Assembly (NCBI GenBank): GCA_022819985.1
Contig: JAJEGH010000018.1
Coordinates: 1 to 64,000 of the forward strand
Direction of reading: 5' to 3'
From: Alphaproteobacteria bacterium
Lineage (GTDB): Bacteria; Pseudomonadota; Alphaproteobacteria; Bin65
Length of the DNA: 64,000 bases
Position 1 is the first letter of the stretch. Every line of letters begins with the position of its first letter. The notes under the pieces are model-generated. The model was not told the DNA's origin and ran no database searches. It saw only the letters and a program-made list of their open reading frames with translations. Position numbers and translations under genes: made by a program. Shown piece after piece: positions 5,641-33,017 of this stretch.

Positions 5641-5677
5641 AACCGCCTGTCTCGCCCAGTACGCCCCGCCGTTCAAG

Positions 5678-5906
5678 GATTCCTCTGCGAAACCCCTTCC
5701 CGTCATTCCGACCGGAGCCCCGGCCCGCAGGGCCGGGGCGTAGCGGAGGAATCTCGACTCGGTCTCACCCACAAGAAACCCCTGGTCCTGCGCTGAGATT
5801 CCTCCGCTGCGCGCCCCGGATGAAATCCGGGGCGCTCCGGTCGGAATGACGGGAGAGGGTGGCAGGGGCCGATCGCGCTGTTTTGTTCGGCTTTCGCAGA
5901 GGAATC
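5678..5906. mobile_element. MITE-like element, family A copy 1 (229 bp)
   Basis: 15-bp perfect TIRs GATTCCTCTGCGAAA...TTTCGCAGAGGAATC; 9-bp direct repeat CCGTTCAAG at 5669-5677 and 5907-5915; inverted copy at 32692-32919. Confidence 0.75.
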
Positions 5907-5950
5907 CCGTTCAAGCGGGAGCGCTGGCCGGAACGCCAAGGCGGTATATT

Positions 5951-5965
5951 GTTCTTTTTTTGTTC
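5951..5965 (+). promoter_or_regulatory. LexA (SOS) box GTTC-TTTTTTT-GTTC
   Basis: Exact match to the alphaproteobacterial consensus GTTC-N7-GTTC, ~25 bp upstream of the radical SAM start. Confidence 0.75.
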
Positions 5966-32645: not shown

Positions 32646-32691
32646 CCCGACAAAGTGAAGCAACCTTTATATATGATCCCCCTCCGAAGAG

Positions 32692-32919
32692 GATTGCTCT
32701 GCGGAAGCCGAACGAAACCGTGTGATCGGCTCCCGCCACCCCCGCCGTCATTCCGACCGGAGCGCCCCGGATTCAATCCGGGGCGCGCAGCGGAGGAATC
32801 TTAACGCAAGACCAAGGGTTTCTTATGGGTGAGACTGAGTCGAGATTCCTCCACTACGCCCCGACCCTTCGGGCCGGGGCTCCGGTCGGAATGACGGTGA
32901 GGAGTTTCGCAGAGAAATC
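32692..32919. mobile_element. MITE-like element, family A copy 2 (228 bp, inverted relative to copy 1)
   Basis: Reverse complement aligns end to end with 5678-5906 at roughly 88-90% by hand; flanks CTCCGAAGAG / CTCTGAAGAG. Confidence 0.75.
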
Positions 32920-33017
32920 CTCTGAAGAGGGGGAGGAATAGAGGCGAGGCGTCGTACCGGCCAACGTGAGGCGATAGACGGCGAAGGTTTTTTTCGCTTC
33001 GAGTGCGGCAGGCGCAA

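Follow-up and report, generated by a model that had tools for sequence, protein, structure and literature searches.

Structure and surroundings of the repeat

Within the window (the whole stretch of DNA that was analysed, 64,000 nucleotides), a radical SAM gene and a glycosyltransferase gene lie divergently side by side, in an arrangement that is conserved in the genus. Upstream of the radical SAM gene lies a GTTC-N7-GTTC box (5951-5965), which we take to be a LexA-box-like motif and which is conserved in four congeners (G001-G004) and, with one spacer change, in a fifth (G005). A 229-bp repeat (5678-5906, no strand assigned) stands between the start of the glycosyltransferase gene and this box, and judging by its predicted fold would put a strong hairpin into any leader transcribed from the glycosyltransferase side, which it separates from the box.

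The repeat opens with GATTCCTCTGCGAAA (5678-5692, forward strand) and closes with the exact inverted repeat of this string, TTTCGCAGAGGAATC (5892-5906, reverse strand), and two identical 9-mers, CCGTTCAAG, flank it at 5669-5677 and 5907-5915. The perfect 15-bp terminal inverted repeats (TIRs) and the 9-bp target-site duplication described in a first-pass annotation of this DNA are therefore exact, and its statement that the element encodes no transposase was likewise confirmed by the list of open reading frames, where no long frame is transposase-like. The interior consists of two inverted CGTC-tagged REP-like hairpins, the first being CGTCATTCC...GGAGGAATCTC enclosing a CCCCGG-CCCGCAGGG-CCGGGG stem-loop (5701-5755, forward strand), and the second its inverted match (5795-5853, reverse strand). 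The first unit by itself has dozens of further matches across the genome, and the complete element is predicted to fold into a single long arm, at -164 kcal/mol and with z -14.7. An intrinsic terminator and a sigma-70 promoter were looked for in the interior and neither was found; Rfam gave zero matches over the whole window.

Joining the two flanks of the element recovers a further hairpin, interrupted by the insertion, with the left part at 5664-5677 and the right part, GCGGG, resuming at 5915-5919. The intact form is CCCGC-CGTTCAA-GCGGG, which congeners keep as CCCCGCCGTTCAAGCGG. Empty sites in relatives, for which the first-pass annotation had proposed a search, were found in four of five congeners, where the orthologous intergenic region contains one 9-mer and no element: G001, G002 and G004 read ...CCGCCGTTCAAGCGGC..., with a single CCGTTCAAG, and G003 reads ...CCGTCGTTCAAGCGGC..., with the 9-mer as CGTTCAAG. 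The orthologous region of G005 is too diverged for this comparison. At the level of sequence comparison, the empty site is the strongest single evidence for transposition of the element.

The empty site also bears on the idea that the repeat is a mosaic of intergenic hairpin and TIR-like units that homologous recombination reshuffled and that never transposed actively. Nested and mosaic arrangements are indeed common in the genus, and some copies have non-matching flanks; however, the precise empty site in four congeners, insertions into targets that are unique and non-repetitive (for example CCGTTCAAG and, for L061, GAAAACATG), and direct duplications above chance (see below) all argue against such an origin. 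The empty site refutes it for the window copy, and although shuffling may still fit some composite copies, we regard it as an extremely improbable account of the element.

Copy number and target-site duplications

The genome that contains the window (G000) is a draft of 4.04 Mb in 51 contigs, 97.4% complete, and our copy counts derive from a sequence search of this draft. The search recovered eight full or near-full copies of the element with ends in common. In addition, the 15-bp TIR with up to three mismatches occurs at 165 sites in this genome versus 26 for a reversed control pattern, and the eight copies together with these counts place the recurrence far above chance. With at most one mismatch, TIR sites in congeners numbered 57, 33, 74, 37, 11 and 0, and those of the control pattern 0. 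From the TIR-site counts in its own genome and in congeners, the window element can be identified as one member of a large family with common ends and several different interiors. Searching the genome and its relatives with the 229 bp thus upheld the expectation that copies end alike; the copies are many more than the two first described.

The second copy within the window (32692-32919, reverse strand) has the opposite orientation to the first, matches it over the full length at 89% identity, and has TIRs with two and one mismatches. A 10-bp near-duplication, CTCCGAAGAG at 32682-32691 and CTCTGAAGAG at 32920-32929, sits in a CCCCCTC..GAGGGGG hairpin. The second full copy claimed by the first-pass annotation is therefore real and of full length, but its ends are imperfect and the genome holds eight copies rather than two. 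In congeners its orthologous region is too rearranged for an empty-site comparison, as the intergenic regions do not align.

Direct repeats of at least 7 bp (at most one mismatch) flank 13 of 77 TIR pairs, many of which are nested or spurious, whereas redealing the right flanks among elements 1000 times gave 2.8 such pairs on average and never more than 9. Perfect duplications include CTCTGAAGAG (L002), CGCTGAAGCG (L053), CTCTTCAGAG (L107), GAAAACATG (L061) and CCCTCCGGG (L130). Alignment of the copies with their flanks thus gave shared ends and duplications above chance, but in many related TIR pairs a direct duplication cannot be read, and the flanks are inverted in L145, L211 and L037. Duplication length ranges from 5 to 10 bp overall, with 5-8 bp at insertion sequences (ISs; mostly so in ISs of other genera), mostly 9-10 bp at copies of the element, and 9 bp at the window copy. 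For comparison, a fixed, subgroup-specific duplication length is a trait of the IS5 family.

Several other arrangements were observed in this family. L145, L211 (G004) and L212 are nested composites, in which the hairpin of an outer element is split into left and right halves by a second TIR element, and the identical composite is present at more than one location. A 226-bp sister element occupies an apparently identical site in G003 and G001 (L060, L061), with the duplication GAAAACATG or a one-base variant of it; this common site and matching duplication suggest that the insertion is probably older than the split between G003 and G001. Hairpins of the type CCCCCTCTTCAGAGGGGG (0-2 mismatches, both orientations counted) number 29-137 per genome in G001-G005, frequently as inverted pairs about 100-130 bp apart, and G006 contains neither such a hairpin nor a TIR site.

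Insertion sequences with the same ends

In the congener G003, a TIR pair 1170 bp apart (L138) encloses a frameshifted DDE transposase gene, and this transposase fragment, used as a query, led to IS copies in named genomes. These ISs, of about 1.15-1.17 kb, share the 15-bp ends of the window element and encode an IS5-family transposase (NCBIfam NF033581, with DUF772 and DDE_Tnp_1); the left TIR at 5678-5692 is identical to the TIR of L168, L236 and L138. The intact IS L168, from the alphaproteobacterial MAG jk18x1bzbins.75, is 1167 bp long and has perfect 18-bp TIRs, the first 15 bases of which are the TIR of the window element. Its transposase (318 aa) scores 248.6 bits against NF033581 (cut-off 140) and matches Pfam PF01609 (DDE_Tnp_1) and PF05598 (DUF772). 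The DDE catalytic residues are kept at three positions of the aligned IS transposases (GTLMDAT, VYGDRAYE and RAPVEAVFSALKRLYG). ISs of Bosea and G334 share the same end, those of Parvibaculum do so with mismatches on one side, and a Sphingomonas MAG has one IS end of the same type; L174 and L175 are more distant alphaproteobacterial ISs with two to three TIR changes. In the assembly of the congener G004, at least eight IS ends are truncated by the end of a contig (C5, C13, C24, C37, C50, C55, C79 and C93), which implies an IS present in several copies and left unresolved by the assembler.

Neither protein nor DNA searches found a transposase gene or IS remnant of this kind in the own genome of the element, a 97.4% complete draft in which multi-copy ISs would collapse at contig ends. 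Three IS-sized TIR pairs in this genome (C14, C21 and C24) were inspected and contained ordinary genes and no transposase. Since no partner IS was detected there, the element may be stranded, or its transposase may be supplied from outside. Annotated plasmid relatives gave only IS5-family matches, at no more than 50.5% identity among the matches listed, and the rhizobial and Azospirillum ISs checked among them have other TIRs. A literature search for the TIR string GATTCCTCTGCGAAA returned no paper.

The interior of the element raises the alternative of a REPIN/BIME-type repeat, in which a RAYT (Y1 tyrosine transposase) would mobilize an inverted REP pair in single-stranded form and the TIRs would be no more than outer hairpin arms. 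The inverted CGTC-tagged pair, the occurrence of similar pairs outside TIR-bearing elements, and the folding of the whole element into one arm would all be consistent with this origin. However, neither the clean 9-bp duplication nor the empty site would be expected if the element moved in RAYT/IS200 fashion, and its ends are identical to those of a DDE-type IS. Moreover, Y1_Tnp (PF01797) has no match in G000 and only weak single matches in G003 and G004, and CGTC REPs have been reported as lacking a dedicated transposase (PMC3733652). We therefore give very little credence to movement by a RAYT.

We consider it highly probable that the repeat is a MITE, a DNA transposon of the non-autonomous kind, with ends matching an alphaproteobacterial IS5-family lineage and presumably mobilized through the mechanism proposed below. 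The first-pass annotation had also favored a non-autonomous transposable element over a generic intergenic repeat, and the common ends, the empty sites and the ISs with identical ends support that choice. This first reading identified the MITE, but overlooked the hairpin target, the larger family, the REP-like interior pair and the fact that no transposase gene was found in the own genome.

Hairpin targets and a proposed mechanism

A C-rich run was present in the left flank of 28 of 45, 65 of 78 and 23 of 30 TIR ends, versus a background of about 5%, and position -1, next to the TIR, was G in 84-96%. When joined, the flanks fold as hairpins, for example CCCCCTCT-TC-AGAGGGGG, CTTCTCCC-GTGT-GGGAGAAG in Bosea, and ATTCCCGC-GAAG-GCGGGAAT, the last of which is a CGTC-type REP. 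The duplication was centred on the dyad axis of the hairpin (offset 0) in 11 of the 15 reconstructed sites and lay no more than 0.5 base off the axis in two more; the targets of L061 and L233 are weak palindromes. The loops are asymmetric (GTGT, CTTGC, GTTCAA etc.), and the duplications are consequently direct rather than inverted repeats. The reconstructed targets show both the IS and the MITE inserting into what are, by their predicted folds, REP-like hairpins.

Comparable hairpins occur within the family itself. A CCC-containing hairpin lies no more than 90 bp inside the TIR for 20 of the 44 ends of the own genome and for 30 of the 78 in congeners, versus 0.8% of random windows, and in eight cases in congeners a second TIR is inserted at such an internal hairpin. 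Close to their termini, many related MITEs carry predicted hairpins like those used as targets, and their sequences show nested insertions into these. The hairpins carried within family members would thereby act as landing pads for further copies.

These observations suggest a mechanism in which a transposase supplied in trans would bind the GATTCCTCTGCGAAA ends, and staggered cuts, equidistant from the axis of a REP-like hairpin, would lead to insertion of the element. The loop and a few stem bases would thus be duplicated, giving 5-10 bp overall and 9 bp in the present case. An IS5-type transposase would presumably move the window MITE in trans, and it may recognize the hairpin as a structure and not as a sequence. 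A different, unsampled IS or transposon might instead be the partner, sharing the 15-bp ends with the IS5-family lineage by chance. Beyond the 15-bp TIR, the MITE and the ISs have no evident sequence in common, searches of the own genome recovered no IS, and the mostly 5-8 bp duplications of ISs from other genera depart from the mostly 9-10 bp of the MITE copies, all of which would favor an unsampled partner. Nevertheless, the identical 15-bp TIR, the hairpin-type target and the dyad-centred duplication are found in both IS and MITE, and IS copies are present in the congeners G003 and G004; a chance resemblance is thus unlikely in our judgement.

A more tentative and rather doubtful extension of movement by an IS5-type transposase is a self-reinforcing system, in which the cuts are made about the dyad axis of a hairpin that is probably extruded as a cruciform, duplication length follows the hairpin, and hairpin-carrying MITEs supply new landing sites and increase in number through nested insertion, serving as a vehicle for CGTC-type REP dimers. 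Recognition of hairpins as structures by the transposase would predict a duplication length that tracks hairpin geometry, which would be unusual for DDE transposases.

Relation to known systems

MITEs and REP-targeting ISs are known kinds of element, and it is their combination here that is new. The ISs resemble the IS5 family (NF033581, transpos_IS5_4) in size, in their single ORF and in a DDE domain with DUF772, and L168 passes the curated cut-off; the present branch differs in its end GATTCCTCTGCGAAA, in copies that lie within REP-like hairpins, and in duplications of 5-8 bp for ISs and 9-10 bp for the MITE. REPs are described as targets of ISs from five families, IS5 among them, in the portion of PMC1525189 considered here, which attributes to ISNm1106 (IS5 family) a 'type 2' REP association only, near REPs and not inside them. 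ISRm22 (IS4 family, IS4Sa subgroup) is described in the corresponding portion of PMC2266710 as inserting at the palindromy axis of REPs with 6-bp direct repeats. As portrayed there, both share the REP association with our elements, and ISRm22 also the palindromy-axis insertion with direct repeats, but ISRm22 belongs to another family and ISNm1106 lies near REPs rather than inside; hairpin-carrying MITEs are mentioned for neither in those portions of PMC1525189 and PMC2266710.

Like RUP, NEMIS/Correia, ERIC and Nezha, the bacterial MITEs listed in PMC3733652, which are 70-300 bp long, non-coding, form long hairpins, have TIRs of 15-30 bp and are mobilised by TIR-recognising transposases, the window element is a short repeat of this general design; those MITEs have other TIRs and another partner, whereas here both the interior pair and the target are REP-like hairpins. 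The interior units also resemble the CGTC-tagged alphaproteobacterial REPs, which have a short palindrome whose first stem pair is AT, are stated to have no dedicated transposase and whose mover is an open question in the literature (PMC3733652), in their CGTC tag, ATTCC...GGAAT palindromes and inverted pairing. The window unit, with its CGTC tag and palindrome CGTCATTCC...GGAATCTC, is likened to them by description; in contrast to CGTC REPs, the window units are longer, contain an additional stem-loop within their loop, carry TCTC instead of CCA as their tail, and are enclosed by transposon ends. REP dimers inside transposon ends would be one concrete way for CGTC REPs to spread, and our results point to the enzyme that probably mobilizes an abundant repeat family and to a simple, testable target rule.

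MITEs of about 213 bp with identical TIRs and two inverted hairpins were also found in Bosea genomes (L241, L252, L259 and L266). These genomes hold ISs with identical ends as well, and would provide a better model for transposition assays than the genome of the window.
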